DNA of 34,212 nucleotides, from the IMG/VR virus record IMGVR_UViG_3300048838_001349, positions 1 through 34,212 of that record. The stretch is one strand, 5' to 3'. How positions within the stretch are numbered: the first letter of the stretch is position 1; every line of letters starts with the position of its first letter. The stretch is from a virus. Position numbers and translations under genes: made by a program. Positions 10,896-34,165 of this stretch are shown one piece after another. The notes beneath the pieces were generated by a model. The model worked only from the letters and a program-made list of their open reading frames with translations, did not search any database and was not told the origin of the DNA.

Positions 10896-11900
10896 ATGAG
10901 ACCATCAGAGCTTAAGGCATTGATCGGAGACCGATTCAAGGCTGGAATCAAGCGCCCGTTGCTTGTCGAATCAAGTCCAGGCATCGGCAAAACCCAAATC
11001 GCCTCACAAGTCGCCACGGAATTGGGTATTGGGTTCCAGGCGATTCACGCGCCATTGCTCCAACCGGAAGATTACGGGTTCCCGGTAATCACAAGCGACA
11101 AGACCAGCGTGAATTTTGTTGTCGCAAAAGACAAGTTTCCCATTGAGGGGTCCGCCGTCGCTGAGACTGGAATCTTCTTAATTGACGAATTGTCTCAAGC
11201 GGACAATTCCGCGCAAAAGATTCTAGCTAACCTAATTCAAGAGCGGGAGATTCACGGGCAGCGCCTTAAGCCTAATTGGTTGGTCATCGCAACCGGCAAC
11301 CGTCTCATTGACCGTGCCGGAGCTAACCGTCTCTTGTCTCATCTTAAGAATCGTCTCACAACGGTTGAGCTTGAGGCATCAATTGATGACTGGTCCCAAT
11401 GGGCCATTGAGAATGGCGTCAAGTCGGAAGTAATCGCATTCCTGAGATTCCGCCCGGAATTGCTCAATGCTTTTGACCCGCAAAATGATATCAATGCCAC
11501 GCCTCGGTCATGGGTCGAGGGAGTCAACGCCGCATTGGGAGTCATTACTCCCGCGCTTGAAATGGAAGTATTCAAGGGAGACGTGGGCGAGGGAGCGGCA
11601 GCGGAATTTTGCGGATTCCTTAAGGTCTACCGGAAGCTTCCGTCTCCCGATTCCATCATGCTCAACCCGGCAAAAGCTGAGATACCAAAAGATCCCGCGA
11701 CTCTTTACGCGCTTTGCGGCGCCTTGGCCCACAAGACCAGCGCGGACAATTTTGGTCGTATCATGACTTATGTGGGTCGAATGGCGCCGGAATTTACCGT
11801 CTTGTATGTGAGGGACGCCATCCGTCGCAAAGCTGAGATACAAGCGACAAAAGAATTCATTGACTGGGCATCGGGTCCCGGCGCGAAGCTTTTGTCCTAA
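10896..11900 (+). CDS. MoxR-like AAA+ ATPase
   Basis: A 334-residue AAA+ ATPase of the MoxR/AAA_5 type. It shows Walker A SSPGIGKT (residues 26-33), Walker B IFLIDELS (D97, E98), sensor 1 in LVIATGNR (N135) and an arginine-rich HLKNRL segment near 150 typical of this group. MoxR ATPases usually act as chaperones that insert metal cofactors or remodel partners, and pair with VWA-domain proteins. Here the VWA partner is two genes downstream, with a DUF3150-like protein between. The start has GGAG with the same GGAGTATCA leader as the next gene. It is the first gene of the rightward operon. Confidence 0.9.
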   Translation: MRPSELKALIGDRFKAGIKRPLLVESSPGIGKTQIASQVATELGIGFQAIHAPLLQPEDYGFPVITSDKTSVNFVVAKDKFPIEGSAVAETGIFLIDELSQADNSAQKILANLIQEREIHGQRLKPNWLVIATGNRLIDRAGANRLLSHLKNRLTTVELEASIDDWSQWAIENGVKSEVIAFLRFRPELLNAFDPQNDINATPRSWVEGVNAALGVITPALEMEVFKGDVGEGAAAEFCGFLKVYRKLPSPDSIMLNPAKAEIPKDPATLYALCGALAHKTSADNFGRIMTYVGRMAPEFTVLYVRDAIRRKAEIQATKEFIDWASGPGAKLLS

Positions 11901-11928
11901 ACTGAAACACTTTACAGGGAGTATCAAA

Positions 11929-12774
11929 ATGAGTCTAAAAACCAATGCATTACTCGTATCCGTCAATATCACTCAATGGACGGGTCGAAAATTCGACAAG
12001 CGCGCAACCGGCACGGTTGAGGCAACCCACGCAACGGACCAAGGTGTGGGCAATTTCACTAAAAAATTGCTTCCGGGCGCCGCTGAATTGGAAGCAATCC
12101 AAAGCGCCGCCTGGGCGTTGCGAAAATTCTTTTATGAGAATACGCTTCCATGGGCGGCGGATGGCGCGCGTATCGTCTCAAGTCAAAATTACTTTCCTTT
12201 CACTCAGGAATTTAGGAAGCGCAAAGCGGAATTTGACGCCCACGTTGCGGCATTCCTAACCGAATACCCGCGATTACAAGACGCCGCCCGACGGAAGTTA
12301 GGCGACTTGTTTAGTGAATCGGAATACCCGGAGATTACCAGGCTAGCCGCAAAATTCCGTTGCGAAATGGCCATTTTCCCGGTCCCTGATATCGGAGACT
12401 TCCGCGTTGAAATCAGCGACGCGGAAAAACAAGTATTCCTAGATTCCATGGCACGGGTCGAGCGGGACGCGCTGAACGATTGCTACAAGCGATTACTTGA
12501 CGTGGTTAGCAAGGCAGCGGAGCGACTCAAGCAACCCGATGCCGTATTCCGGGAATCTCTGATTGGGAATATCGTTGAGCTTGTGGAATTGCTCCCGCGA
12601 CTCAACCCAATTGATGACCCAAAGCTTGAGGCGTTGCGAGCGGAAGTCCAGTCCGTAGTTAGCAAAGTCTCAGCGGAATCAATTCGGGCATCGGAAACCA
12701 CGCGCGCCGATACGGCAAAACAATTGGAAGACATCGCTTCCAAAATGGACGCTTTCATGGGCGGTGCTCAATGA
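11929..12774 (+). CDS. DUF3150-like protein
   Basis: A 281-residue protein from ATG 11929 with CAGGGAG upstream; the frame is open earlier but overlaps the ATPase. It begins NALLVSVNITQWTGRKFDKRAT, the N-terminal pattern seen in DUF3150 phage proteins, and is otherwise helical and charged. Proteins of this family are often encoded between a MoxR-like ATPase and a VWA/metallopeptidase protein in phages, exactly the arrangement here. Function is unknown; it probably belongs to the same complex. It overlaps the next gene by four bases (ATGA). Confidence 0.7.
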   Translation: MSLKTNALLVSVNITQWTGRKFDKRATGTVEATHATDQGVGNFTKKLLPGAAELEAIQSAAWALRKFFYENTLPWAADGARIVSSQNYFPFTQEFRKRKAEFDAHVAAFLTEYPRLQDAARRKLGDLFSESEYPEITRLAAKFRCEMAIFPVPDIGDFRVEISDAEKQVFLDSMARVERDALNDCYKRLLDVVSKAAERLKQPDAVFRESLIGNIVELVELLPRLNPIDDPKLEALRAEVQSVVSKVSAESIRASETTRADTAKQLEDIASKMDAFMGGAQ

Positions 12775-13907
12775 GTCAAGTCAATTACATGACCAAAGCC
12801 AAAGCTCAATTGATACTTGACCATCCGTTTTTCGCCTCAATTCTTTTGGGTATGACCATGGCGGAAGACACGTCAATTCCGACCATGGCAACCGATGGCG
12901 AGTCAATTCGGTTCAACCCGGAATGGGTCGCAACCCTTAAGCTCAATGAATTGACTTTCGTGCTCGCCCACGAAGTCATGCATTGCGTATTCCAACACAT
13001 GACCCGACGGAATCACCGCGACCCTAACAAATGGAACATCGCTGGAGATTACGTAATCAATGACGTGCTCGTTAAAGAGCGCGTGGGCGCCATGCCTCAC
13101 GGCGGGTTGCTCAACCCACAATTGGTCATTGATGGTAATGGAACGACTGAGGGAGTTTATAACTTGCTCCCTGAGCCGCCGCCAAAACAAGACGGCTCAA
13201 GCGGAGACCATCCGGGAGCGGGTCAACCGGGCGGCGCGATGGACCAAGTAATGGACGCGGGTCAAGACCAGGCAACCAATTCCCAAAAGGAAGCGGAAAT
13301 GCGGGTCCGAATCTGTCAAGCGCGCAACGCTGCCAAAATGGCCGGGAAACTCAGCGCCGGACTTGAGCGGTTAGTCTCCGATCTTGTCCAGCCACGCGTT
13401 GACTGGCGCGCGGTTTTGCGTCGATTCCTAACCACGCGAGCCAAAATCGACTTGTCTTATGCGAGACCAAAGCGCCGCTTTCTAGCCGATGACTTGTATC
13501 TTCCGGGACTAACCGGCGAGCGACTAGGCCGGATTGCCGTTGCCGTCGATTGCTCAGGGTCAATTGATGACAAGACGCTAGCGGAATTCAGCGCGGAGAT
13601 TAAGGCCATCGCGGAAGATACGCAACCCGAAGCAATTGAAATCGTCTATTTTGATTCGGAGATTTTGCGGCGGGACGTGTTTGAGCAAGGTCAAGCGGTT
13701 GAGATTCACGCCATGGGCGGCGGCGGTACCGCGTTCAGTCCGATATTCGAGGCGCTGATGGAAGTCCCGCCCATTGCTTGTGTCGTACTGACGGACTTGT
13801 GTTGTGATGACTTTGGTCCCGCGCCGGAATATCCGGTCTTGTGGGCGTCAACCCATGACGGCGAGGCGCCATTCGGCGAAATCGTCTTAATGCGAGACAG
13901 GAGGTAA
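12771..13907 (+). CDS. Metallopeptidase-like VWA protein (DUF2201 type)
   Basis: A 378-residue protein with two domains. The N-terminal part has a zinc-protease signature LAHEVMHCVFQH (H67, E68, H71) and the accompanying WNIAGDYVINDVL. A low-complexity, Gly/Pro/Gln-rich linker (about 134-170) follows. The C-terminal VWA-like domain has a complete MIDAS: DCSGS (D260, S262, S264), T320 in GGGGTAF, and D342 in VVLTDL. This matches putative metallopeptidases paired with MoxR ATPases. The intact HExxH and MIDAS suggest both sites are functional, but proteolysis has not been shown for the family as far as I know. Confidence 0.9.
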   Translation: MSQVNYMTKAKAQLILDHPFFASILLGMTMAEDTSIPTMATDGESIRFNPEWVATLKLNELTFVLAHEVMHCVFQHMTRRNHRDPNKWNIAGDYVINDVLVKERVGAMPHGGLLNPQLVIDGNGTTEGVYNLLPEPPPKQDGSSGDHPGAGQPGGAMDQVMDAGQDQATNSQKEAEMRVRICQARNAAKMAGKLSAGLERLVSDLVQPRVDWRAVLRRFLTTRAKIDLSYARPKRRFLADDLYLPGLTGERLGRIAVAVDCSGSIDDKTLAEFSAEIKAIAEDTQPEAIEIVYFDSEILRRDVFEQGQAVEIHAMGGGGTAFSPIFEALMEVPPIACVVLTDLCCDDFGPAPEYPVLWASTHDGEAPFGEIVLMRDRR

Positions 13908-13909
13908 TT

Positions 13910-14500
13910 ATGTCTTATTTTTATGCGCATAACAGCGTGAGCAATACCCTTAAATGGCGCCCACGGCTCAAAATTTGGAAGTCCGGGGCGCTCTTGTGGG
14001 ACCCGGAACGTGAGGAAGCATGGTCCTACAATTGGTGTTTTGCAAAACGTATCAATGGCAAAATGGTATTCAATGAATACCGATATTCCAACACCACGAC
14101 CCGTCATCAATCGGAGATTCATTCGTTCTTTAGGTCCCACAAGATCAAAATCGACCTAACCGTCAATTGCCATGGTTGCCTTAAGAACGATTCCGGCGCC
14201 GGACCGCAAGCGGTTGAACGCGCCATCCGTGGCGCTGCCGATACGGGAGACTTCCGCGACGCGCGTGCAATTGCTCGCGTCTTCCGCGTCCCGTTCAGTC
14301 GGGCGGTAATTGACCAAGTCATTGAGACCATGGAAGTCGAGCTTTGCGACGCGTATCTTGAGCGCGCATTCCAATACCAGGAAGACAAGCTCAACGCCAT
14401 TTTGGAGCGCCTCGGGGAGCCCACGTATTACCCAACCCACGCGGCGGGACCAAATGACGCCGCTCAACCCACAAGCGAGGTATTCCCATGGGGCGCTTAA
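13910..14500 (+). CDS. Hypothetical protein, 196 residues
   Basis: ATG 13910 is preceded by AGGAGGT, the best ribosome-binding site in the window, two bases after the VWA gene stop. The N-terminal half is aromatic-rich and beta-like (LKIWKSGALLWDPEREEAWSY, NGKMVFNEYRYSN). The C-terminal half is helical (QAVERAIRGAADTGDFRDARA, VIDQVIETMEVELCDAYLERA). No family was recognised. The tight linkage suggests co-expression with the ATPase/VWA genes. Confidence 0.7.
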   Translation: MSYFYAHNSVSNTLKWRPRLKIWKSGALLWDPEREEAWSYNWCFAKRINGKMVFNEYRYSNTTTRHQSEIHSFFRSHKIKIDLTVNCHGCLKNDSGAGPQAVERAIRGAADTGDFRDARAIARVFRVPFSRAVIDQVIETMEVELCDAYLERAFQYQEDKLNAILERLGEPTYYPTHAAGPNDAAQPTSEVFPWGA

Positions 14501-14700
14501 TATCCAGGAAGCAATTGATTACCGAATTGGAAGCTGAGACCGATTCACTCCGCGCCATTTTGGCAGTCCCGGAAGCAATCGACGCGCTTTGCGCTCCCGG
14601 CGTATTCGGACCAGGATACCGGGGCGCTTGTGAGTCGCGACTTAAGGAATTGACCCGAATCATTCGACTAGCAAAGCGAGGTACAAAATGCGCCGCCTAG
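14488..14700 (+). CDS. Hypothetical protein, 70 residues
   Basis: ATG 14488 overlaps the previous gene by 13 bases and has GAGG eight bases upstream. It is a short helical protein (ISRKQLITELEAETDSLRAIL, then ESRLKELTRIIRLAKRG) with a Cys/Gly-rich middle (CAPGVFGPGYRGACE). No family was recognised. Its stop lies 13 bases inside the following lipoprotein gene. Confidence 0.55.
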   Translation: MGRLISRKQLITELEAETDSLRAILAVPEAIDALCAPGVFGPGYRGACESRLKELTRIIRLAKRGTKCAA

Positions 14701-14894
14701 CCGTCATGGCGCTAGCGATTTTGGCTTGTGGGTCATGCGCGACCCCGCCGGAAGCGCCGCCGCCCGTCCCGACCCTAACCGATCAATCGACCAGGCTTTG
14801 CGACCAACGGACCGGAATATGCGTCCATTGCACGACCTACCCAATCCGGAATCTTGACGGGTCGCTGAGCCATTACCAGGAAATATGCCGATGA
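14688..14894 (+). CDS. Small proline-rich lipoprotein, possible o-spanin
   Basis: A 68-residue protein with a signal (MRRLAVMALAILAC) and a lipobox ILAC, giving lipidation at Cys14. A proline-rich stretch follows (PPEAPPPVP), then a tail with three further cysteines. Small proline-rich outer-membrane lipoproteins are characteristic of Rz1-type spanins in phages of Gram-negative hosts, usually next to an Rz-like membrane protein, which is not evident here. The start has GAGG upstream and overlaps the previous gene by 13 bases. Spanin function is a hypothesis. Confidence 0.6.
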   Translation: MRRLAVMALAILACGSCATPPEAPPPVPTLTDQSTRLCDQRTGICVHCTTYPIRNLDGSLSHYQEICR

Positions 14895-15073
14895 CCAATG
14901 CCCGCCGTTCAACCCGACCCGTCCAGCGTGGCGGGCGGGTCCTAACCGAGACGCCAAAACCTGAGGCGTTCCAGTCCGGAGCGCAGCGGTCCGATACGGA
15001 CCAATCCGGGATTTCCCGTTTTGGGGCGGCGACCTGCATACCTGCATATTTATGCGCGCGTTCCTATGGAACT

Positions 15074-15142
15074 CCCACGCGCGGAAACCCCTTTACTCTC
15101 TTTGACAAAGTTTTTGGGGCCGAGCCCCGAAAGGAAAAACCG
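15074..15142 (+). repeat. Leader repeat copy A with hairpin
   Basis: The block at 15074-15095 matches 15423-15444 at 20 of 22 positions (core CCCACGCGCGGA, one variable base, ACCCCTT). Both copies are followed by a C+T-rich spacer and a GGGGCC-containing hairpin. Here the hairpin is GGGGC/GCCCC (15116-15128) with a three-base loop, and then AAAGGA and an ATG at 15143. The arrangement suggests a mobile or duplicated 5' leader controlling translation. It is not a standard terminator, since no T-run follows. Confidence 0.55.
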
Positions 15143-15391
15143 ATGAGAACTTTTCCTTTGAAAGCCATTTGGCACAAGACCGTTGAGGGAACCGATCTTG
15201 AATATCTTCACTGGAACGAAATCGCAGCTTGTTTGGTAAAGGCGGGCGTCATCGCGCTCGTGCCCGCGCCCGGCTCAAAGACGTTCGACCGTTACACCTT
15301 GGTGCGTCTCCCTCGATTTCACACCAAGTCCGAACTCAAGGCGTTTATCCTGGAGATACTCAAAAGGGAGCTAACCCGTGAAAGCGCCTAA
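15143..15391 (+). CDS. Hypothetical protein, 82 residues
   Basis: ATG 15143 follows the repeat leader and AAAGGA. The frame is open back to ATG 14885, but the region before 15143 encodes a low-complexity Ser/Arg/Thr-rich stretch and contains hairpins, so the short form is preferred. The protein looks like a compact alpha/beta domain (WHKTVEGTDLEYLHWNEIAACLVKAG, then a C-terminal helix ELKAFILEILKRELTRES). No family was recognised. Confidence 0.6.
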   Translation: MRTFPLKAIWHKTVEGTDLEYLHWNEIAACLVKAGVIALVPAPGSKTFDRYTLVRLPRFHTKSELKAFILEILKRELTRESA

Positions 15392-15422
15392 TCGCCCCGC
15401 GCACACCGCGTTATATAAATAC

Positions 15423-15497
15423 CCCACGCGCGGATACCCCTTAACCCTTTTAAACGATTCTGGGGCCAGCCTAGGCCCTAAAACCAAGGAGTCACAA
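15423..15497 (+). repeat. Leader repeat copy B with hairpin
   Basis: This is the second copy of the leader, 349 bases after copy A. The matching block is 15423-15444; the hairpin is GGGCC/GGCCC (15463-15478) with a six-base loop, followed by AAGGAG and ATG 15498. A TATATAAATA lies just upstream (about 15412-15421) and could be a -10 region, though no -35 box is obvious. Spacing from repeat to start codon is about the same as in copy A. Confidence 0.55.
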
Positions 15498-16079
15498 ATG
15501 AGCCCTAGTATTTTTTGTAGCCTGATGGATCGAATGGCGGCATTGGTTTGTTCGCCATTTTCTGGATTCGCTCAAGATTTTTGGGAAAAGATTGCTCACG
15601 TAACGCTTCAGCCGCTTGAGCTTCAGCCTGCCGCTTGCGGTTGGCCTCAAGGATTTTCACCCAGCCTGCCTGAATCTTGGCCTGCTGTTCGGGAGTTAAG
15701 GGCGGAACCCCTTCCGTCACATACGACCGCGTTGGCGGTGCCGGTGTCTGTCCCCGGAAATGCTCAGCCACAGTCGTCAAAGCCTGAGGCGTCCCAGGGG
15801 CGGGAGCTTCAATCGCGGGGCGCGGCTGTAAAGCCTGCGATGCCTGCTGCATCACACCCAACCAATCAGACTTTTTCTTCTTCTGAGGCATGGCCCATTA
15901 TTCGGGACATTGGTTACGCAAGTAAAGTAATTCTTTTGAGCCTGGTCGGATGGACATTGGTTTGGATTTTTGCCTTCGGACAGCCGGACAAACTGGTCAA
16001 CATCCCGCTCGGAATTTATCAACTTTTCAACTGCGGCCCATCCGCCGAAGTCGAGGACCCGTGGACTTGTGACAAGTAG
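15498..16079 (+). CDS. Membrane protein downstream of leader copy B (uncertain)
   Basis: ATG 15498 has an excellent AAGGAG site and would encode 193 residues. The last third contains a clear transmembrane segment (SKVILLSLVGWTLVWIFAFG) and an end with two cysteines, which looks genuinely coding. The first two thirds are Pro/Ser/Cys/Trp-rich and lie opposite another plausible gene (15505-15891, minus). Either both strands are used, or the opposite gene was inserted into this one, or a shorter product begins at ATG 15840 without a visible binding site. The C-terminal part is the more secure. Confidence 0.5.
   Translation: MSPSIFCSLMDRMAALVCSPFSGFAQDFWEKIAHVTLQPLELQPAACGWPQGFSPSLPESWPAVRELRAEPLPSHTTALAVPVSVPGNAQPQSSKPEASQGRELQSRGAAVKPAMPAASHPTNQTFSSSEAWPIIRDIGYASKVILLSLVGWTLVWIFAFGQPDKLVNIPLGIYQLFNCGPSAEVEDPWTCDK
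15505..15891 (-). CDS. Possible antisense gene, 128 residues, virion-protein-like composition
   Basis: A complete frame from ATG 15891 to a stop at 15505. It has a basic start (MPQKKKKSDWLGVMQQAS), a Pro-rich middle and a helical, Ala/Gln/Glu/Arg-rich end (LTPEQQAKIQAGWVKILEANR, then QKMANKPMPPFDPSGYKKY). The composition resembles the internal virion proteins at 26-31 kb on the same strand. The ribosome-binding site is weak (TGGGCC). It lies entirely within the plus-strand reading frame 15498-16079, so at least one of the two assignments may be wrong. Confidence 0.45.
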   Translation of the reverse strand: MPQKKKKSDWLGVMQQASQALQPRPAIEAPAPGTPQALTTVAEHFRGQTPAPPTRSYVTEGVPPLTPEQQAKIQAGWVKILEANRKRQAEAQAAEALREQSFPKNLERIQKMANKPMPPFDPSGYKKY

Positions 16080-16260
16080 AGTCAGAACAAACTAGGAATT
16101 CGTTTTATGGAGGTTTACGCGGGGGGAGGGAAAAGGGGGAATTCCGCCAAAACTTTTATCCCATACTACACGTATATGCATATAGTCATGAAATGTACCC
16201 CAATTCTTGCGTATGCATATTGTTATAATATTATTCCCTTTTTCCCCTTATAATTCCCCC
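16080..16260. other. AT-rich palindromic region between convergent genes
   Basis: This 181-base gap follows the plus-strand membrane gene and precedes (on the opposite strand) the primase-helicase stop. It contains TATATGCATATA (16173-16184, perfect palindrome), TATGCATA (16212-16219) and ATAATATTAT (16225-16234). It also has an extended -10-like TGTTATAAT (16221-16229) on the plus strand. No G+C hairpin with a T-run was found, so it is not an ordinary terminator. Operator, origin or promoter function is possible. Confidence 0.4.
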
Positions 16261-18720
16261 TCAATAGAATTCGTTAGAGGAATCAAGTAGTTTGTGGCCA
16301 GCGTCAAAACCGGAAACGTTTGAGGCATCTTCCCCCGAGGGGAGTTTCTTATTCCCCTCTTTTGCAACGCGGGTCAGCACAGGCGATTTTCTTGACGCTA
16401 TGCCTTCAAAGACCCAATCACCTTGGAACTTTGACTTGGCGAGTAAAATCCCCCCAGTCCCCGTTTCGCACCGCGCATAGAATTTCATCTTGGGTATCCG
16501 GGGCCTCGCGTTATAGGCATCTTCATGCCATTTACAGAACTCTTCCCACAAGACTTTAGTATAGCAACGCACCCCGGATTCAAGGGTTAAGTCCGCCACT
16601 TCCCCTTCGCGAATCGCCTCAAAAAAGCTCGCAATCGGGTCGTTATCAGTCTGCCATTTTTGCATCCGGACTTTGCCTGAATCGGGCACAAAAAACTGTC
16701 CGTGGCAGTTGAGCAAATCCTTCAGTCCTTCGAGCGCGAAATTAATTATCCCCGCCATCCCGGCTTCACGGATTCTGTCTATCCTATGTTTATCGTGCTC
16801 ACTGGCGTCCTTTTGAAAGTGGGAGCACGGGATAAAGGTCCATCGTCTCGTGTGGGCCATGGAGCCCCTTTCAAGCGTGGGTGGAATGTCGTTCGCTCCA
16901 AATATATGGACCGCGGGGAACGGCGCCCGGATTATGGCCTTATGTTTGCGGTTGATGGCGACGGGGATTCGGTCCTCGATTTGTTTAATCACGGCATCGG
17001 CGATGGGTTTGGACACGTCCAAGTCGGTGACGGCGTTGACCAGCTTCCCAGCCATTGGTTCCATGCCGAACCCTTGAAAGTCCGCCGGTTGCACGGAGCA
17101 TACGTTCCCCTCACTCACCAATTGCGCGGCCAAAATAATCAGCGTTGATTTGCCCGAGCCTGGTTTCCCCACCAATAAAAAGAGCCTCGGATACAAGGGC
17201 GCAAGGACCGACCCGTACATTTGTTTGACCGCCCTGAGTTTGGTTTCGTACTCGGCATCGCCCAGGATGTTATGAATGGTTTCCTCGAACACTGGGTTTT
17301 TGGCGTCCGGGTCGTAATCAAAGGGAATCAGGTTAGTGGAGAAATCATCGCGTCGGTGCTCCCGAAACGTGAATTCCCAATTGCCCTTGGCGTAATCAAT
17401 GGCCAGGGTTCCGTTATTAAAGGTCACGCGCTGCGGGTTCACGTAAAACATATTACGTTTAGTGTGCGGGAGTAGGTTCAGGAAACATTGGAACACGGAG
17501 CGAAAGCGGTTATAGGTGCCATAGCCAGCGTGAAGGACCATGATTTGCTGCATGACGTGGGCCTGATCGGCCTCGGTGAAAGCGCGCCAGTATTTTTTAT
17601 CCCAAAGGAAAATATCGGTATCGAATTTCACCAGCGAGCCCTGGTAGTAATCAAACAAGCGGCGGGCGACTTCCATTTCTTCCGGGAGAATAACCTTGCC
17701 GGTCTTGGTGTATTTCATGTCCATGGGCTCAAGGCCATTAACCCAAGGCCCCACCACCAAATTAGAACTTGGTTTCTGGGCGGATGATGGGGACGGCGGC
17801 GAATCGAATTTTTGAAACTGGGCCATGTCCACCGGGACCATGCCGTCCTTGACCGCCTGGGTACCGCCTAAGACCCAAAGATCGCAGTAGTCCATGCTCG
17901 CATCGCCCGGAGGGCACACGGCACCAAGACCCAATTCCAGCGCGAGACGCCCGCCCTGTTCCAACCCCGGATTCACGGGCGCTCGGTGTCCCGCCGCCAG
18001 CATCTTGGCCTTGGTGTCAGCGTCATTGTCGAGCGCCAGAATCGCGCCGGGGAATTTCGGGGCTACGTGCTTTAAGTTGGAAAGGGTAAAGGCCACGATG
18101 ACCCGCGAGCCCGTGGCGATATTGAGCGCGACCCCTGTAGCAAATCCCTCACAGACAAGAGTGATTGGGTCCCCACCGGCAGTAGCGGGCAACTCAAAGA
18201 ACAACCCCTCGACTCGGCCAAAGTTGAAGAATGATTTGTCGCCGGAGTCGAAGATGGTTTGGAAGTTCCAAACTTCACCTGATTCGTCCCGCATGGGAAC
18301 GACGACGGCGTGACCACTTCCGGTTGGTTTAACGATGGTGCCGGGCACATGGTTTGGGAGTTTCTTTTTCTCAAGATATAAGGATGTGCCGGAGCTTCCC
18401 TTTTGCTCGTATCGAGTGAAGATGTCCGAGGCGTTCTTTTTGGCCTGAAGCTGGCGTTCGGTTTTTTGTTGGATAAATTGTTTTTGCTTTTCCTCGAATT
18501 CATGTCTTTCCCCCTCTGAAATCGTGTCGCTCGAAAAATAAGAGTAACTTTTACCGTGACGCCATTCGCCCCAAGTGAGTGTAATTTTTCCCGACGCCAA
18601 CGTGGAACCGATGTACCAACCTTTGTTCCCCAGTGAATCCGTGAACTCGTGCGGGATTCCGTCTAACTGTGATGGCAAAAAATCAAAACCATGGGACTTG
18701 ATAAAATCTTGAAGTTCCAA
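16261..18720 (-). CDS. Primase-helicase (Toprim plus SF3/D5-like ATPase)
   Basis: An 819-residue replication protein. The N-terminal half has a Toprim-type primase region: E191 in TLVCEGFATGVAL and ALDNDAD (D231, D233). The C-terminal half is a D5/SF3-type helicase: Walker A LVGKPGSGKST (516-526), Walker B acid near D566 (VTDLD), sensor in VHIFGANDIPPT (N610) and an RR pair at 625-626. It would prime and unwind DNA for the family A polymerase encoded at 22844. The start is TTG 18720 with GGGGGGA six bases upstream; ATG 18727-ward is out of frame. It is transcribed alone, leftwards, away from the candidate origin. Confidence 0.92.
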   Translation of the reverse strand: MELQDFIKSHGFDFLPSQLDGIPHEFTDSLGNKGWYIGSTLASGKITLTWGEWRHGKSYSYFSSDTISEGERHEFEEKQKQFIQQKTERQLQAKKNASDIFTRYEQKGSSGTSLYLEKKKLPNHVPGTIVKPTGSGHAVVVPMRDESGEVWNFQTIFDSGDKSFFNFGRVEGLFFELPATAGGDPITLVCEGFATGVALNIATGSRVIVAFTLSNLKHVAPKFPGAILALDNDADTKAKMLAAGHRAPVNPGLEQGGRLALELGLGAVCPPGDASMDYCDLWVLGGTQAVKDGMVPVDMAQFQKFDSPPSPSSAQKPSSNLVVGPWVNGLEPMDMKYTKTGKVILPEEMEVARRLFDYYQGSLVKFDTDIFLWDKKYWRAFTEADQAHVMQQIMVLHAGYGTYNRFRSVFQCFLNLLPHTKRNMFYVNPQRVTFNNGTLAIDYAKGNWEFTFREHRRDDFSTNLIPFDYDPDAKNPVFEETIHNILGDAEYETKLRAVKQMYGSVLAPLYPRLFLLVGKPGSGKSTLIILAAQLVSEGNVCSVQPADFQGFGMEPMAGKLVNAVTDLDVSKPIADAVIKQIEDRIPVAINRKHKAIIRAPFPAVHIFGANDIPPTLERGSMAHTRRWTFIPCSHFQKDASEHDKHRIDRIREAGMAGIINFALEGLKDLLNCHGQFFVPDSGKVRMQKWQTDNDPIASFFEAIREGEVADLTLESGVRCYTKVLWEEFCKWHEDAYNARPRIPKMKFYARCETGTGGILLAKSKFQGDWVFEGIASRKSPVLTRVAKEGNKKLPSGEDASNVSGFDAGHKLLDSSNEFY

Positions 18721-18750
18721 ACCATTCCCCCCTTTAGTGCTGAACCATCA

Positions 18751-18782
18751 ACTATACACTGAATCACCTACCCCCAAGTCAA
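18751..18782 (-). promoter_or_regulatory. Candidate promoter for the primase-helicase
   Basis: On the minus strand TTGACT (18777-18782) is followed after 18 bases by TGTATA (18753-18758), or after 20 bases by TATAGT (18751-18756). It lies 30-60 bases upstream of the TTG start at 18720. The -35 box is good and the spacing is slightly long. Confidence 0.4.
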
Positions 18783-18813
18783 CGGGGAGACGGGCTCTGA
18801 CCAGTGGTGCCAT

Positions 18814-18868
18814 TGTGGGTAACTCTGTGGAAAGGTGTGTGTGAAGGCTGTGAATACAGCGTGGATAA
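18814..18868 (+). other. Candidate replication origin: cluster of DnaA-box-like 9-mers
   Basis: Four 9-mers in one orientation resemble the DnaA box TGTGNATAA: TGTGGGTAA (18814-18822, 8/9), TGTGGAAAG (18826-18834, 7/9), TGTGAATAC (18849-18857, 8/9) and CGTGGATAA (18860-18868, 8/9). They sit in a gene-free stretch between the leftward primase-helicase and the rightward replication genes, where an origin would be expected. None is a perfect consensus box and no adjacent AT-rich unwinding element is obvious. The origin call is inference from clustering and position. Confidence 0.4.
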
Positions 18869-18895
18869 AGGATTCGCGCGGGTACCACACATCCC

Positions 18896-18923
18896 TTGCG
18901 TTTTCAAGTTGTTCTGATATGTT
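18896..18923 (+). promoter_or_regulatory. Candidate extended -10 promoter for replication operon leader
   Basis: TTGCGT (18896-18901), a 16-base spacer, and TATGTT (18918-18923) preceded by TG at 18915-18916, an extended -10 arrangement. Transcription would begin near 18930, placing the two hairpins at 18947-18992 in the leader RNA. Confidence 0.4.
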
Positions 18924-18946
18924 GGCCGTACCTTTTAGTGCGACGC

Positions 18947-19002
18947 TCAAAGACCTGATCTTTGAAAGTGGCTCGGTCTCCCAACCGGGCCATTTCTTTT
19001 TT
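18947..19002 (+). terminator. Tandem hairpins ending in a Rho-independent terminator (leader RNA)
   Basis: The first hairpin is perfect: TCAAAGA/TCTTTGA (18947-18965) with a five-base loop. Three bases later, TGGCTCGGT pairs with ACCGGGCCA (18969-18992), nine pairs with one G.U and a six-base loop, followed directly by TTTCTTTTTT (18993-19002). This is a textbook intrinsic terminator, placed before rather than after the replication genes that start at 19079. It could yield a short RNA of about 70 bases or act as an attenuator. Confidence 0.7.
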
Positions 19003-19078
19003 AAAGGGGTCTAGATTTTGGTTGCCAAACATTTCGGGTTTGTGAAGGCTGGTGAGGTCGCTTAAAGGGGAATCAGAA

Positions 19079-19285
19079 ATGCTATTGGCTAAGGACCCAC
19101 GGCTCCATGCAACCGTTAGGTGGGTGTTTCTTTTCATCCGCCACGAGATTCATCGTGGGCATTCGTTATCGGACATCGAACTCCATTTATCCCAAGCGGT
19201 TCATTCAGGTAAACTGGACGAGTTTATAAAACTCTTTGACAAGGAAATTAAGGATGCCGCAATCAACGGACCATTACACGAGTGA
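19079..19285 (+). CDS. Hypothetical protein, 68 residues
   Basis: ATG 19079 has AAAGGGGA seven bases upstream and lies 76 bases after the leader terminator, so it is the first gene of the rightward replication operon. The protein is helical and His-rich (LHATVRWVFLFIRHEIHRGHS, then LDEFIKLFDKEIKDA). No family was recognised; an early regulatory role would suit the position. Confidence 0.6.
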   Translation: MLLAKDPRLHATVRWVFLFIRHEIHRGHSLSDIELHLSQAVHSGKLDEFIKLFDKEIKDAAINGPLHE

Positions 19286-19295
19286 GGCGGGGAAA

Positions 19296-19616
19296 ATGTG
19301 GGCGGGGCTTTTGTTCATAGTATTTGGTTTTGCCTGGGCGATGTCGGGCGTTTGGCTGATTGTCGATTCTTATTTTAAATCAGTAGACCACACCAACCGC
19401 GTGCTCACGGAAACACGGACGCAAGTCATCGAGGAAATTCGCTCCCTTCGCACCGAGGTTAAGGGCTTTTGTGAGGCGCAGAAATTATTCGGGAAAACCT
19501 GCGACGCGGAGTTTGACCGGCTGGACACGGTGAGCGATACCGTTGGCGCACATGAGCTTGAAATCAAGCGGCTCAAAGAGCGGCAGAGTAGTTTTGTCAA
19601 ACAACGGGAGCAATGA
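19296..19616 (+). CDS. Membrane-anchored coiled-coil protein
   Basis: A 106-residue protein from ATG 19296 (GAGGCGGGG upstream, no overlap); ATG 19254 with AAGGA upstream would add 14 residues and overlap the previous gene by 32 bases. An N-terminal transmembrane helix (WAGLLFIVFGFAWAMSGVWLIV) is followed by a long charged helix with heptad character (VLTETRTQVIEEIRSLRTEV, then GAHELEIKRLKERQSSFVK) and two cysteines. The topology resembles Rz-type inner-membrane spanins but also other phage membrane proteins. Its location in a replication operon argues for caution. Confidence 0.65.
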   Translation: MWAGLLFIVFGFAWAMSGVWLIVDSYFKSVDHTNRVLTETRTQVIEEIRSLRTEVKGFCEAQKLFGKTCDAEFDRLDTVSDTVGAHELEIKRLKERQSSFVKQREQ

Positions 19617-19870
19617 TGCAGGAAAAGGGAAGCCCAGAACTTCACGACCCCGTTAACCACCCCAAACACTACACTCAGCATCCGAGCGGAATCGAGTGCA
19701 TCGAGATTACCCGGCACATGAATTTCAATCTCGGCAACGCCATGAAATATATTTGGCGGGCCGATTTGAAGGCGGGACTTCAGGACTTGGAAAAGGCCAT
19801 TTGGTACATCCAGGACGAGATCAAAAAGCGCAAAAGCAAAATGGAAATCGGGGACCGGAGCCGTGACTGA
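19613..19870 (+). CDS. DUF3310 protein (putative nucleotide kinase-like)
   Basis: An 85-residue protein with the DUF3310 signature: DPVNHPKHYTQHPSGIECIE (residues 12-31), then GNAMKYIWRADLKAG and LQDLEKAIWYIQDEI. The domain occurs in many phages, alone or fused, and is found in T7 gp1.7, described as a nucleotide kinase. It probably acts in nucleotide metabolism for replication, in keeping with its neighbours. Two adjacent ATGs (19613 and 19616) are possible starts; the second is better spaced from GGGAG. Confidence 0.85.
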   Translation: MMQEKGSPELHDPVNHPKHYTQHPSGIECIEITRHMNFNLGNAMKYIWRADLKAGLQDLEKAIWYIQDEIKKRKSKMEIGDRSRD

Positions 19871-21362
19871 CGCTGAACACGTTGGCGACCCCAGTCCCCT
19901 CGGTCACGATGGGAATGCGTATCCATCCGGCAATTCATCGGTGGAACCAAGTTCAAACTTAAACGGTCTTTGGGGCCATCAAGTCGAGGGTATTCATCGG
20001 GCACTGGCCAAAGGTAGCTATGGCTTTTTCTTTGAAGCCGGGACCGGGAAAACCCGTACCACCATTGAAGTCCTGCGCCACATTTATACGCAGCACAACG
20101 AGGCGCTCAAGACCCTGATTGTGGCGCCGCAAGTGGTGTGCCCAAATTGGAAAGCCGAGTTCGCGAAGTTCTCAAAAATTCCGGAACGCATGATCGAGGT
20201 CCTGGAAGGCTCAGGCAAAGAGCGAACCGAAACCATCAAAACCACGGACGCACGGATTCTGATTTGCAATTACCACACGCTCAATATGTTACCGGCGTTC
20301 GATGCGCTAAGAGCCTGGGCTCCAAAGGTCATGATTGCCGACGAGTCACACCGGATAAAAAACCCAAAAGCCATGATGACCAAGCGAGCGATAGCGTTAG
20401 CGATTCACGCCCAGTATAAATATATTTTATCTGGGACGCCGATTCTCCAGAACGCCATGGACGCGTTTTCCCAGTTCATGTTTCTCGATGGGGGAAAAAC
20501 CTTTGGGGTTAATTACTTCACCTTCCGCCGCAGATACTTCCAAGACTTAAACGCGAGCATCCGGGCACGCTCACCACAAGTGACGTGGGCCAAGTGGGCG
20601 CCGATCAAACACCGCGAGGCGGAACTCAAAACCAAAATCTCCAACTCCAGTCTCTCGGTGAGAAAATCGGAGTGCCTGGACCTGCCGCCGTTCGTGCGCC
20701 AGCGGGTCGCGGTTCCATTGTCGAATGAGCAAATGAAAGCCTATGAGGAAATGCGGAAGTACATGATTACGTTCGTAGGGACGGAAGCCTGTACCGCGCA
20801 AATGGCTCTACACAAGGCTCTCAGGCTACAACAAATAACGTCCGGTTTTTTGGGGAGTGATGATGGAAGCGAACACGATTTCAAGAACGTCCCGCGCCTC
20901 GACGCGCTCAAGGAATTGCTCGAAGATTTATGCGAATCAGAAAAAGTTATCGTTTGGGCCTGTTGGCGTAACAACCAACGCGCGATTCGGGACATGCTCG
21001 CTAAAACTAAGATCGGATTTAGGGAACTTATTGGAGATTCAAGTCACCAAGACCGCCAGCAAGCAATGGAAGATTTTCGCCGCGACCCGAATGTCCGCGT
21101 TATCCTTGGAAGCCAGGGGGCCGGGGGCATCGGCGTTAACTTGGTGGAAGCCTCTTATGCGATATATTATTCGAGAAATTTCTCGCTCGAACAAGACGTA
21201 CAAAGTGAGGCGCGAAATTATCGCGGCGGTTCAGAGATTCATGGAAAAATCACTCGGATTGACCTTGTCGCACCTGGAACCATTGACGACGATGTCTTAA
21301 AGGCCCTGGAGCAAAAGCAGGAAATCTCTGACCGGGTGATATTCCAATGTCTGAAGAAATAG
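19863..21362 (+). CDS. Snf2-type SF2 DNA helicase/translocase
   Basis: A 499-residue ATPase. It shows a Q-motif-like GHQVEG (38-43), motif I EAGTGKT (58-64), Ia LIVAPQVV, motif II DESH (160-163), motif III LSGTP (189-193), motif V GSQGAGGIGVNL (417-428) and a modified motif VI QSEARNYRGG (447-456) in place of the usual QxxGRxxRxGQ. Phage Snf2 helicases are thought to act in replication or recombination. The N-terminal 30 residues are Ser/Gly/Pro-rich and probably disordered. The start is GTG 19863, overlapping the DUF3310 gene by eight bases, with GGAG just upstream. Confidence 0.93.
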   Translation: MTDAEHVGDPSPLGHDGNAYPSGNSSVEPSSNLNGLWGHQVEGIHRALAKGSYGFFFEAGTGKTRTTIEVLRHIYTQHNEALKTLIVAPQVVCPNWKAEFAKFSKIPERMIEVLEGSGKERTETIKTTDARILICNYHTLNMLPAFDALRAWAPKVMIADESHRIKNPKAMMTKRAIALAIHAQYKYILSGTPILQNAMDAFSQFMFLDGGKTFGVNYFTFRRRYFQDLNASIRARSPQVTWAKWAPIKHREAELKTKISNSSLSVRKSECLDLPPFVRQRVAVPLSNEQMKAYEEMRKYMITFVGTEACTAQMALHKALRLQQITSGFLGSDDGSEHDFKNVPRLDALKELLEDLCESEKVIVWACWRNNQRAIRDMLAKTKIGFRELIGDSSHQDRQQAMEDFRRDPNVRVILGSQGAGGIGVNLVEASYAIYYSRNFSLEQDVQSEARNYRGGSEIHGKITRIDLVAPGTIDDDVLKALEQKQEISDRVIFQCLKK

Positions 21363-21586
21363 CCAACGTCTCCAAGATCGAAATCAACGACCAGGAAATT
21401 CAAGTCGAGACCCGAACCACCAAGGACTTCAGAGTGGTGGTGTACGGGCTCACGAGCCAAGAGCCCATCGAGCCGGTGACTGTGGCGTTGACGCTGTATT
21501 TAATCTGCAAGGACATATGCAGCAATTGCAACATTGAGATTGACCAACTGGAAGACGGTTTGGTTGAGTCGGATGACATGCACTAA
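21347..21586 (+). CDS. Hypothetical protein, 79 residues
   Basis: ATG 21347 overlaps the helicase end by 16 bases. It appears to be a short beta-then-helix protein (ISKIEINDQEIQVETRT-like start, then VALTLYLICKDICSNCNIEID) with three cysteines close together and an acidic C-terminus. No family was recognised. It is encoded within the replication operon. Confidence 0.6.
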   Translation: MSEEIANVSKIEINDQEIQVETRTTKDFRVVVYGLTSQEPIEPVTVALTLYLICKDICSNCNIEIDQLEDGLVESDDMH

Positions 21587-21596
21587 GGGGGGAAAT

Positions 21597-22019
21597 TTGG
21601 ACGGGGAATCAGGCGACGTTTCAGTCGCGGAATTTCAAAATGTAATCGACGAGTGGGTTTTGGTGCGGGAGAAAATCGACGAGATTGAAGCGTCGGTAAA
21701 ACCCTACCAGGAAAAGCGTCGCGAACTGGAGCAACGGATTATCCAATACATGGATGCCTGCGAGCTTAGTAGCTTTCAAGGCAAGCTCGGCGGCGTGGAA
21801 AAACGCATCGTGGATTACTGCAACCAACCCTCGGAAGAAAACCGGCAGATTTTCTTGGACCATTTAATCGCGAACGGGGAACTCAGCGACGTGGTGACGT
21901 TTCACCAGGGCCGCTTGACCTCATGGTACAAGAGTAAAAAGGAAGAACTTGGATTTGATTTTAAGGCCCCTGGCCTTGATGAAATGAAGCAAAGAACAGA
22001 ACTAAGAAAAAAACGATAA
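21597..22019 (+). CDS. Hypothetical coiled-coil protein in replication operon
   Basis: TTG 21597 was chosen because GGGGGG lies about five bases upstream and it follows the previous stop by ten bases; ATG 21573 would overlap that gene. The 140-residue protein begins with a charged coiled coil (VREKIDEIEASVKPYQEKRR ELEQRII) and ends with DVVTFHQGRLTSWYKSKKEE and a basic tail. Its position before the ssDNA-binding-like gene and polymerase suggests a recombination or replication accessory. No family name was recognised. Confidence 0.65.
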   Translation: MDGESGDVSVAEFQNVIDEWVLVREKIDEIEASVKPYQEKRRELEQRIIQYMDACELSSFQGKLGGVEKRIVDYCNQPSEENRQIFLDHLIANGELSDVVTFHQGRLTSWYKSKKEELGFDFKAPGLDEMKQRTELRKKR

Positions 22020-22030
22020 GGGGGAACAGT

Positions 22031-22834
22031 ATGAGCACGGAATTAGTGAACAAGGAAACTGGAGAAATCATGGACGCCAACCAGGCGGCGATGGGGATGC
22101 TCGACGACTTGCCGTCTGCCGACGCATCGGACTACCGGATACCAAACCTTTGCATTGTCCAACCCACGTCGAAGCTGCAAAACGCGGCGGGAGAAATCGT
22201 GGACCTGAACACCAAACATGCCGTTGGTGCTGCGGGGAAGGCGTTGAACTTTGTACCGCTTTGGTTTTTCAAGACCTGGGAAATTTACCACGTCGATAAG
22301 CAAAACAACCGTGAGTACATCGGCAAAGAACTATTTGGCCCGAAGAACGCCATGTGGAAGTGGGAAGAGGAGGCCAAGGACTTCACCATCAAGCGACACT
22401 TGAACACCAATGTGTTCATGATCTTGGAAAAGGATTTGGATTCACCGATGCCGCAGCTTTATATGTTTAAGTTCCGCGGCAAGTCCAGCGTTGAGGGGAA
22501 GAAACTTTTGACGTTCTGGACGAACGCGAAGAACTATAAACAGATTCCATTCAGCTATGTGTTTTCCATCACGCCCCAGTTAATCACCGACCAAAAGGGG
22601 AAGTATTACGTGGCCAGTGTTGCCAACGTCATGGACGGTGACAAGTACCGCATGATTAAGGGGCCACAATTGGCGGTCGCAACCGGCTGGGTGGATATGA
22701 TTAAGACGAACCTTGCCGCCATGACTTCGGCACAGCTTGCTGTGACTGACGAGGATGTCGAGGAAACTCCGGACTCCGGCCCCATTCAAGCCGGACCCGT
22801 GGTGCAGGACGCCCAAAACCAACTCACGTTTTAG
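22031..22834 (+). CDS. Putative ssDNA-binding/recombination protein
   Basis: A 267-residue protein with GGGGGA upstream of ATG 22031. The body is beta-rich with many exposed aromatics (LNFVPLWFFKTWEIYHVD, QLYMFKFRGKSSVEGKKLL, YSVFSITPQL-like strands). The C-terminus is acidic, low-complexity and ends in an aromatic (VTDEDVEETPDS to NQLTF), a design seen in bacterial SSB and T7 gp2.5. It sits directly before the DNA polymerase. The role is inferred from architecture and context; no specific family motif was confirmed. Confidence 0.5.
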   Translation: MSTELVNKETGEIMDANQAAMGMLDDLPSADASDYRIPNLCIVQPTSKLQNAAGEIVDLNTKHAVGAAGKALNFVPLWFFKTWEIYHVDKQNNREYIGKELFGPKNAMWKWEEEAKDFTIKRHLNTNVFMILEKDLDSPMPQLYMFKFRGKSSVEGKKLLTFWTNAKNYKQIPFSYVFSITPQLITDQKGKYYVASVANVMDGDKYRMIKGPQLAVATGWVDMIKTNLAAMTSAQLAVTDEDVEETPDSGPIQAGPVVQDAQNQLTF

Positions 22835-22843
22835 GGGTTGGCC

Positions 22844-24769
22844 ATGAATCAAATTGAAGTTATCGCGACCGAGGAAACCCTCGGCGCGATTCTCGCTGAG
22901 TTTAAAGAGGAACCAATTCTCGCCATTGACACGGAGACGACGGGCCTTCGCCCCTTCCACAATGATGAGCTTTTCAGTATTATCGTCTCGTCGTCAAAGA
23001 CCGCCTGCTACTTTAATTTCAATTGGTATTCGGAGTTAGGGGTTGCACAGTACCAACTGAAAGATAAGGCCAGCCTTGCGCCCCTGTTTGAAACTCCAAG
23101 GCTGTGGGTATTACAGAACGCCAAGTTCGATCTTCACTTTTTAAACAAAGCGGGGCTCAAACCAAAGGGCGAGTTTTACGACACACAAGTCGCGGGCCGC
23201 GTGCTTTACAATATCCACGATTCCTACAGCCTCGATGCCATGGCTGAGCGGGAACTCGGGGAGCGCAAAGACGACGCCGTGATGAAATGGTTAGAGGAAA
23301 ACAAGTGCTACCAAATGGAGTCGGTGCCTGGTCGGAAGAAACAAAACAAGAATTACTTTTTCAACCAAGTGCCGTTTGAGATTATCTCAAAGTACGGCGC
23401 CAAGGACGCGAAGCTCACGCTCGCCCTATGGCAGCATCAGACCGACCCAGATAAAAATCCGTTTCACGCAACCGACCAAAATGTGATTCAAAACGAAATG
23501 CGCCTTATCCAAACGCTGTTCGACATGGAGCAAGTGGGCGTAAAGGTGGACATCCCCTTTACTATTGCGGCCTCTGAGTTTGAGCGCAGGCGCGTGGAAC
23601 AAGCTCTTGAGAAGTGGAAGGCGGCTCACGGGGTTGAACTAACTGACTCCGGTGAATATTTAAAGCCCGTGTTTGAGGCGCTGGGATTTTATATTCCGCT
23701 CACCGATAAGGGCGAGCCCAACGTGGACTATAACGTCATTTCCAAAATCGACCACCCCTTGGCGCGCATCCTCGAAGAATATCGGGACGCCGACAAACGC
23801 TACTCCACTCTCATGGGGTTGCTTTACCAGGCGGATAACAACCATGTGGTCCACACGAACTTCAAGCAATCGGGAACGGTCACTGGGCGCATGTCGTCCA
23901 TGGAACCAAATCTCCAGAACTTGGCCGCGGAAGACGAAAGCGAATACCCAATCCGGCGGGCGTTTGTGCCGCGACCTGGGTTTTTCTTCGTGAGCATTGA
24001 CTACAAGCAAATGGAGTTCCGGGTTTTGCTGGATTACGCCAAGGAAATGGAACTCATTCAAAAGATCATTGAGGGGCACGACCCTCACCAAGCGACCGCT
24101 GATTTAACGGGCCTGTCCCGGAAGGCAGCAAAGACCCTAAACTTCGGGTTGATTTATGGGATGGGGATTGCCAGGCTCGCCCATGGAATTGGTGTCACGG
24201 ATGCCGAGGCCAAGGCGTTCAAGCAAAAATATTTTAATGCCCTGCCGGGCGTGCAGCAATTCCTGTGGAACGCCTCAGGAAATCAACGCAAACGCGGGTT
24301 CACTTGGAATTGGTTCGGGCGCCGCTTCCAGCTTAAGGACAAGAACTTTGCCTACCGGGCTCCGAACTCGGTGATTCAGGGCGGCTGTGCCGATGTCTGT
24401 AAAATCGCTATGAACCGGCTCCACGGGTTCTTAGGCGATAAGAAAACCCGGATGGTACTCCAGGTTCACGATGAGATTTTATTCGAGGTCGCGCTCGACG
24501 AGGTCGGTATTGTGCCCGAATTAAAGGCCATCATGGAAGCGGCATACCCGGTCCGGAATATTCCTTTGACTTGCTCGGTGGAATTCAGCCTAAAATCTTT
24601 TCACGACATGGAGACCGTGTCCGAGGATTTGGGGGAAATCTATCGAGCCATTGGAGCGTCAATTCCAAGTGAAGGTCAGGAAAGCCCTGAAGGAACTTCC
24701 GAACGTGTGGTTCTTCAAGGCGAGCGAACGGAGCTTAGCGGGAATTCCGGACTTCATACTGTGCATTAA
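22844..24769 (+). CDS. DNA polymerase I (family A) with 3'-5' exonuclease
   Basis: A 641-residue replicative polymerase. Exonuclease motifs are AIDTETTG (Exo I, about residue 29), NAKFDLHF (Exo II, about 92) and YGAKD (Exo III, about 184). Polymerase motifs are motif A SIDYKQMEFR (about 384), motif B RKAAKTLNFGLIYG (about 426) and motif C VHDE (about 541). All catalytic carboxylates are present. Motif B has Phe at the position that is Tyr in T7 polymerase, the E. coli Pol I state, predicting discrimination against dideoxynucleotides. Start ATG 22844 has AGGGG seven bases upstream. The last ~40 residues overlap the next gene and look unlike a normal polymerase C-terminus. Confidence 0.96.
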   Translation: MNQIEVIATEETLGAILAEFKEEPILAIDTETTGLRPFHNDELFSIIVSSSKTACYFNFNWYSELGVAQYQLKDKASLAPLFETPRLWVLQNAKFDLHFLNKAGLKPKGEFYDTQVAGRVLYNIHDSYSLDAMAERELGERKDDAVMKWLEENKCYQMESVPGRKKQNKNYFFNQVPFEIISKYGAKDAKLTLALWQHQTDPDKNPFHATDQNVIQNEMRLIQTLFDMEQVGVKVDIPFTIAASEFERRRVEQALEKWKAAHGVELTDSGEYLKPVFEALGFYIPLTDKGEPNVDYNVISKIDHPLARILEEYRDADKRYSTLMGLLYQADNNHVVHTNFKQSGTVTGRMSSMEPNLQNLAAEDESEYPIRRAFVPRPGFFFVSIDYKQMEFRVLLDYAKEMELIQKIIEGHDPHQATADLTGLSRKAAKTLNFGLIYGMGIARLAHGIGVTDAEAKAFKQKYFNALPGVQQFLWNASGNQRKRGFTWNWFGRRFQLKDKNFAYRAPNSVIQGGCADVCKIAMNRLHGFLGDKKTRMVLQVHDEILFEVALDEVGIVPELKAIMEAAYPVRNIPLTCSVEFSLKSFHDMETVSEDLGEIYRAIGASIPSEGQESPEGTSERVVLQGERTELSGNSGLHTVH

Positions 24770-24980
24770 CGGGATGTTTGTGGGGCTGGAGTTAAAGCGC
24801 AGCGAACGCGCCAAGGCATCAAGGCTTCAGGCCCACACACTGGAACTAATAAATCGGGCGGGCGGCATGGGTATCGTCGTCCACCCTGGAAACTGGAACA
24901 AGGTACTTGAAGCGTTAAAGGGCTTAGCCCGAGGGGGAAGATGTGATCGAAATGAATTGGCTTCAACTGCGGAACCATGA
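24651..24980 (+). CDS. VRR-NUC-like endonuclease
   Basis: A 109-residue protein of the PD-(D/E)xK superfamily. It shows a conserved order: ASERSLAGIPDFILC (G-x-PD, about residues 24-38), FVGLELKRSE (E-x-K, about 43-52), then LQAHTLELINRAGGMGIVV with the downstream Gln. VRR-NUC phage nucleases are proposed to process branched DNA. The frame opens at TTG 24651, overlapping the polymerase by 119 bases; GTG 24672 would give a slightly shorter form. Both overlap the polymerase heavily, which is unusual for the window. Confidence 0.8.
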   Translation: MERQFQVKVRKALKELPNVWFFKASERSLAGIPDFILCINGMFVGLELKRSERAKASRLQAHTLELINRAGGMGIVVHPGNWNKVLEALKGLARGGRCDRNELASTAEP

Positions 24981-25365: not shown

Positions 25366-25370
25366 AGCAA

Positions 25371-25425
25371 GGGGGCCTTTTCAGGTCCCCCGCGCCCACA
25401 ATCCTAAGACGGTGGGGTTGTTTTT
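25371..25425. terminator. Hairpins at convergent gene ends
   Basis: GGGGGCC/GGTCCCCC (25371-25391) forms a hairpin with one bulge and a six-base loop directly after the rightward operon; on the minus strand it is followed by TTGCTTT. A second stem CCCAC/GTGGG (25395-25416) is followed on the plus strand by TTGTTTTT. Together they could terminate both converging operons. Each is weak alone. Confidence 0.45.
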
Positions 25426-25565: not shown

Positions 25566-25566
25566 G

Positions 25567-25809: not shown

Positions 25810-25820
25810 CTTTGAACTCC

Positions 25821-28980: not shown

Positions 28981-28991
28981 TTAAAGTCTCC

Positions 28992-31449: not shown

Positions 31450-31504
31450 GGTTTAATCCCCCCTCTAATCGTTGCCCAAAACAAAACCTGAGACAAGGGG
31501 CGTT

Positions 31505-34156: not shown

Positions 34157-34165
34157 GAGGCCCCC

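Follow-up and report, generated by a model that had tools for sequence, protein, structure and literature searches.

Phage operons contain translationally coupled open reading frames (ORFs) with ATGA junctions. A stop-free frame opposite a conserved gene characterizes the ambigrammatic narnaviruses, according to the accessible portions of three reports (PMC6884476, PMC8316113 and PMC8155312), one of which considers that the act of translating the frame may be what counts (PMC8316113). In frame -2, the excerpted text of PMC6884476 states, stops are not always synonymously removable, and a Phe followed by N, I, K, M, S or T makes one unavoidable. Bacterial antisense overlapping genes have likewise been described (PMC7457138), including three in E. 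coli O157:H7 (PMC9927249) and laoB (PMC5810103), again as given in the accessible portions of these papers. Here we describe a locus, shared by a few uncultured phages, where a stop-free plus-strand frame runs antisense through a conserved minus-strand gene. We propose, with confidence evenly poised for and against, that selection keeps this frame open so that ribosomes can traverse the backward gene and reach a region encoding a membrane protein, a reading drawn from sequence comparison.

The window, by which we mean the whole 34212-base stretch analysed (IMG/VR record IMGVR_UViG_3300048838_001349), encodes a terminase, a D5-type primase and a family A DNA polymerase, and is thus that of a DNA phage. 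No exact direct end repeat of 11-500 bases was found in it. The plus ORF (15498-16079, plus strand, 193 aa) has two parts: a stop-free frame that crosses the minus gene (15498-15890) and, fused to it, a small membrane protein (~15891-16079). Its Shine-Dalgarno (SD) motif, AAGGAG, lies at 15486-15491 (plus strand) with a spacing of 6, and the frame is open upstream as far as a GTG at 15378. The minus ORF (15505-15891, minus strand, 128 aa, ATG start) is located entirely within the plus ORF. A preliminary description had reported two fully overlapping frames on opposite strands, the plus one having the best-placed binding site and a C-terminal membrane segment. All of this stands. Both ORFs are present, the minus gene is real and the plus frame is kept stop-free, as detailed below; the window minus start lacks an SD; and the 19-residue hydropathy maximum (1.93) falls at residues 144-162 of the plus product, giving the predicted membrane segment VILLSLVGWTLVWIFAFGQ (15927-15983, plus strand). 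Going upstream from the minus gene along its own strand, the first long gene reached encodes the D5-type primase/helicase (16261-18720, minus strand; PHROG primase E 7.8e-40; D5_N and DUF5906). Beside the primase stop is an AT-rich stretch (16150-16260) whose core, ATATTATTCCC, is common to the window and the relatives L004 and L011 introduced below.

Direct searches of viral contigs and phage records with the plus or minus protein yielded no relatives. Neither the window nor the L081 minus protein gave a tblastn match in the phage records, and the DNA of 13900-18800 had no match among the phage records of the annotated collection. Relatives were found solely via neighbouring genes, namely the primase, the polymerase, the DUF2201 gene and MRTF, a small conserved gene of unknown function upstream of the overlap (15143-15391, plus strand, 82 aa, SD AAGGA). 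The window primase matched 229 phage records, none covering more than 80% of its length; among the 30 matches listed, identity was 22.9-26.0% over 42-49% of the length. Three loci proved comparable. L004 is syntenic with the window (polymerase 62% and primase 57% identical), L011 has a primase 57% identical to that of the window, and L081 was found through MRTF. MRTF identity to the window is 44%, 41% and 42% for L004, L011 and L081, respectively. A repeat primase search added no loci, and a primase scan of genome contigs gave two partial matches (L078 and L079). The DUF2201 search returned 64 loci, with L014, L015 and L016 inspected more closely (L016 being the L004 contig again); tblastn of the query proteins over the loci showed no minus-gene or MRTF relative in the remaining DUF2201 loci. 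Two alignment searches over 45 records, run without a positive control, produced no further copies. L013 (primase 31%) was not counted, as a comparable gene pair was not recognised beside its primase.

Several features of the wider region were also recorded. Within 10896-13907, an ATPase gene (phrog_1297) is found near the DUF2201 metallopeptidase/VWA gene, to which a gene on a 157-kb contig (L015) is related at 61% identity. In metagenome 3300048839, two contigs (_001209 and _001175) are identical to the window beside the locus but stop at 15170 and 16451, so that neither covers the overlap; these ends perhaps mark a variable spot in that population. The second of them (3300048839_001175, L003) shows zero differences in 16451-32221, and its 297 mismatches and 12 gap openings all fall in 32222-34187. 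This is the internal virion protein region, and the boundary between L003 and the window is sharp and recombination-like.

The layout of L004 is that of the window, with a plus ORF at 2976-3521, a minus ORF at 2986-3321, the same phase and a fused C-terminal membrane part. L011 and L081 carry a minus gene in the position it has in the window; behind it, the small membrane protein has a gene to itself, complete with an SD. The plus ORFs of these two phages (139 and 150 codons) extend from an ATGA overlap with the MRTF stop to an ATGA overlap with the membrane-gene start, and enclose the minus gene apart from the region of its first codons. All four phages share one register, with the first codon positions of the two strands opposite each other, and the minus genes span 111-128 aa. 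Plus starts are preceded by AAGGAG in the window, AAGGA in L004 and L011, and a 3-base match only in L081. At the minus starts we found no SD in the window and L011, and a 3-base match in L004 and L081. A small membrane protein is encoded at the same place throughout. Its sequence is related within each pair, with 6/2000 shuffles scoring as well for window/L004 and 0/2000 for L011/L081. A single family spanning both pairs was tested and is unsupported, as no relation was detectable between them (202 to 984 of 2000 shuffles as good).

A 30-base leader precedes these genes. In the window, copies at 15072-15101 (plus strand, before the small gene at 15143) and 15421-15450 (plus strand, before the plus ORF) score 34.4 and 31.7 bits with a weight matrix for which 4 phages supplied 8 copies, that at 15072-15101 included. 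The best other window site reaches 11.5 bits, and the maxima in 3 shuffles were 9.8-14.1 bits. Exactly two high scorers occur in the window and in each part-contig examined from L004 (21.9 kb; 2588 and 2919), L011 (13.4 kb; 4776 and 4398, minus strand) and L081 (7.1 kb; 5927 and 6274). One copy lies ahead of MRTF and the other ahead of the plus ORF or inside its start. The two L081 copies are nearly identical to one another. Rfam gave 0 matches in 14400-19400. In L011 and L081 the minus gene stands between the second leader copy and the membrane gene, which fits the picture of a gene set backwards behind a leader. As one of two alternatives, the preliminary description had suggested that a gene of virion type was inserted in reverse into a gene under leader control. 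In line with this, the reversed placement between leader and membrane coding region recurs in all four phages, and it may or may not have come about by insertion; for a virion role, composition is the only support.

Evidence that the minus frame is a gene is clearest for L081 and L011. Their minus proteins share 56% identity at the same locus position, with a dN of 0.37, a dS of 1.69 (near saturation) and a dN/dS of ~0.22. The window minus protein scores 13.5 bits against the L081/L011 profile, a value reached by 0/3000 shuffles (maximum 8.5). For L004 no kinship was detected, with 649/3000 shuffles scoring as well, and grouping its minus protein with the other three is unsupported by sequence. 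A codon log-likelihood test was trained on 31 other ORFs of the window, L004 and L011; in calibration, the true frame outranked its shadow in 77/77 held-out pieces. Minus genes fell on the coding side (0.120, 0.113 and 0.263 per codon for the window, L004 and L011, respectively), and the plus overlap fell on the shadow side (-0.181 in the window and -0.150 in L004), within the upper 6% and 3% of shadows. None of the 77 true pieces scored as low as the minus genes of the window and L004 (minimum 0.155), and no shadow scored as high (maximum -0.103). Scores near zero on both strands would be expected under double constraint; a presumed single small gene at 14688-14894 also scores near zero (only 0.004). 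The non-overlapping membrane parts are coding-like (0.198 in the window and 0.171 in L004). Given the plus frame, the minus frame is more open than expected (P 0.0012 and 0.0090 for the window; 0.0128 and 0.0440 for L004). On the sequence evidence, then, proof of the minus gene is strongest for L081/L011; in the window it is supported by relation to that pair, and in L004 by position, length, phase and codons.

The minus-gene product had been likened to virion proteins for its Ala/Gln/Pro-rich composition. The richness is there (A+Q+P 0.375) and is not specific, as it exceeds all 15 late-strand proteins (0.107-0.319) and all 8 early-strand proteins (0.146-0.207). PHROGs gave 3 weak matches for the window protein, all of unknown function (best E 0.002 over 15 residues), and 0 families for the L081, L011 and L004 proteins. 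The single Pfam match of the window protein, GemA at 16.1 bits, was below the cut-off of 27. The virion-protein reading was rejected, no homology to a known structural family having appeared in PHROGs for any of the four proteins or in Pfam for that of the window. Structure predictions were helical and of low confidence (mean pLDDT 50.1 and 69.7). The sole sigma-70-like site in 14600-19300 (15897-15926, minus strand) immediately precedes the minus start codon and would yield a leaderless minus message; one site against 3.8 expected from shuffles is not above chance.

In each of the four phages the plus strand reads without a stop across the minus gene, always in the same phase. In comparison genes this antisense phase meets a stop about every 20 codons; it was open over 110 codons in 5/1600 overlapping stretches, and in 1/75 separate 115-codon control pieces. 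The window had been picked for its openness, so the fair test lies with the relatives found via other genes, in which the frame is open in 3/3. When synonymous codons were permuted within each minus gene, the probability of an open frame was 0.0067 for the window, 0.0055 for L004, 0.025 for L011 and 0.0013 for L081, with a combined p of 2.5e-5 for L004, L011 and L081. Under a looser null, with synonymous codons redrawn from comparison genes, the values were 0.0058 (window), 0.055 (L004), 0.075 (L011) and 0.0012 (L081), so that L004 and L011 are not individually significant there. In joint synonymous redraws, L081 and L011 were both stop-free in 0/5000. The more distant L005, with 63 codons, one stop in phase (P 0.13) and a minus ORF of uncertain kinship, was omitted from the combined p-values. 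Apart from that stop, homologues of one frame facing a stop-broken other frame, the pattern that would count against the overlap, were sought and are absent from L004, L011 and L081. The other two antisense phases of the minus genes contain 3 to 5 stops each, except for one L011 phase with none.

Codon choice within the minus genes was also counted internally: for Leu, Ile, Val, Ser, Pro, Thr and Ala, we scored how often the codon used was one that gives a plus stop if the next codon starts with A. Over the four genes, such stop-making codons number 0/48 before A-beginning codons vs 71/157 elsewhere. A zero count arises by construction where the frame is open, and hence the relatives unselected for openness carry the weight; excluding the window, the counts are 0/35 vs 50/108 (p 1.7e-8). 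Control genes show slight avoidance (404/1265 vs 1214/3341, 32% vs 36%, p 0.0028). Phe-forced stop pairs are absent as well, affecting 0/8 Phe residues in the four minus proteins vs 155/530 in controls (p 0.06 given the Phe count and 0.002 given length), a result only suggestive that these proteins avoid residue pairs forcing a plus stop. A reverse frame kept stop-free across relatives by synonymous choice, as expected of an ambigrammatic gene, was thus found in 4/4 phages. The overlap proposed in the preliminary description is a true one in that the plus frame over the minus gene is kept stop-free. What seems to be kept is openness alone, the plus protein being without clear conservation.

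The sequence of the plus product behaves differently. Between L081 and L011 the plus frame has a dN of 0.58, a dS of 0.32 and a dN/dS of ~1.8. Purifying selection on amino acids in both frames, expected of an antisense gene pair, was seen for the minus frame only (L081/L011 comparison). Codon identity at conserved minus residues (24/53) is like that of four other aligned L081/L011 segments (91/190, 31/56, 19/35 and 10/22). Plus-strand similarity is slightly above synonymous redraws, which reach it in 342/5000 (BLOSUM) and 130/5000 (identities) cases, so the plus protein may be under weak constraint. The plus segments have a mean hydropathy of 0.04 in L011, 0.36 in L081, -0.20 in the window and -1.22 in L004. 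Over the overlap we see no clear sign of amino-acid conservation in the plus frame.

These observations suggest a route by which the membrane protein could be made. A plus message running from the leader to the membrane gene would have to cross ~350 nt antisense to the reversed minus gene. Ribosomes would load on it at the SD (5-6 bases in the window, L004 and L011; 3 bases in L081), and the stop-free plus frame behind this binding site would take them on to where the membrane protein is encoded. The last step would be translational coupling via the ATGA overlaps in L011 and L081, and in the window and L004 through a pass-through frame fused in frame to the membrane protein. The L011 and L081 membrane gene, having its own SD, may be independent of coupling. 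Translation of the plus frame is our inference, as is its benefit, which would lie in ribosome delivery to the membrane gene and in shielding the plus message, from Rho for instance.

Other explanations deserve weighing against passage of ribosomes. The N-terminal extension could be a useful part of the plus protein, either a sequence-tolerant spacer or a disordered arm of the membrane protein, with stops avoided for the sake of that protein. In the window and L004 the extension follows a good SD and is joined in frame to the membrane segment; this would suit such a role, as would the slight plus-similarity excess in L081/L011. Against it, the stop-free frame of L011 and L081 lies outside the membrane protein, the four plus segments are unlike in character (mean hydropathy -1.22 to 0.36), and extra synonymous constraint is absent between L081 and L011; we regard a spacer or arm as rather unlikely. 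An antisense RNA controlling the minus gene, with openness as a side effect, would account for the conserved leader copy adjoining the minus gene 3' end in all four phages. Such an RNA needs no stop-free frame, SD or ATGA junctions, and we judge it improbable.

It could also be that only the minus gene matters and that the plus frame is open by chance, the membrane protein of the window and L004 being made from an internal start. The plus overlap codons do resemble an antisense shadow, the plus amino acids are not clearly conserved, and TTG codons occur in the membrane segment region of both phages. The window also has an in-frame ATG within the overlap (15840-15842, plus strand), 17 codons before the overlap end and the last in-overlap, in-frame start other than 15498. 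It is a possible internal start of the window membrane protein, preceded by a 3-base SD match only and lacking a counterpart in L004. There, no in-frame ATG, GTG or TTG occurs from 2976 to the overlap end, the first TTG afterwards lying at the membrane segment. In both phages the ATG nearest the membrane part is the out-of-frame one within CATG (15889-15892 in the window, 3319-3322 in L004), which contains the minus start codon and is one base out of the membrane-protein frame. Chance openness was rejected on the stop-making codon counts in three relatives not chosen for openness; the phase is also open in only 1/75 control pieces, and we hold this account decidedly improbable. Least credible, with a probability close to negligible, is that the plus ORF is the real gene, with a spurious minus ORF opposite. 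The better SD is on the plus strand, the minus starts having none or a 3-base match. A plus ORF as the only gene was nevertheless rejected by the codon test, which favours the minus frame in the window, L004 and L011, and by the dN/dS values (0.22 minus vs 1.8 plus). It is contradicted for L081/L011, and related minus proteins occur in three phages.

If ribosome passage is indeed what keeps the frame open, selection on the message of a DNA virus can act on whether it is translatable rather than on what is made from it, and annotators relying solely on protein conservation would overlook such frames. Antisense overlaps are usually debated in terms of whether there is a second protein or not; here two constraints can be separated, the frame being open and its amino acids looking free. 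The signature, an absence of stop-making codons only before codons beginning with A, can be scanned for in other phages. A broader formulation, to which we give somewhat less than an even chance, is that this is a dsDNA phage lineage with an ambigrammatic gene. Its stop-free antisense frame, free in amino-acid sequence, would serve only for ribosome passage; in this staggered frame not all stops are synonymously removable, and the opposite-strand protein would avoid stop-forcing residue pairs. The evidence base is four phages, with minus homology clear for L081/L011, weak for the window and undetected for L004.

Searches of open-licence papers listed no comparable phage case, judging by titles and abstract openings, in listings that included surveys of viral overlaps such as PMC7017920 and PMC8903798. 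The closest likeness is to the ambigrammatic narnaviruses, in which a frame is also stop-free opposite a conserved gene. As far as the accessible portions of PMC6884476 describe them, however, those are RNA viruses in which nearly the whole 3-kb segment is open and codons are aligned (frame -0). Here a DNA phage carries one ~350 nt gene in the staggered frame -2, position 1 lying over position 1 in all four phages, and the window holds a terminase, a primase and a family A DNA polymerase in place of a narnavirus RNA polymerase genome. The bacterial antisense genes, in the accessible text of PMC9927249 and PMC5810103, resemble this locus in having opposite-strand frames that overlap over most of their length. 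In those cases the embedded frame is held to encode a new, second protein (PMC9927249, PMC7457138), whereas here the embedded minus frame is conserved and the enclosing plus frame lacks a clearly conserved protein. With the coupled ORFs of phage operons the locus shares ATGA junctions, found at both plus-ORF ends in L011 and L081; the difference is that the coupling ORF here runs antisense through another gene.
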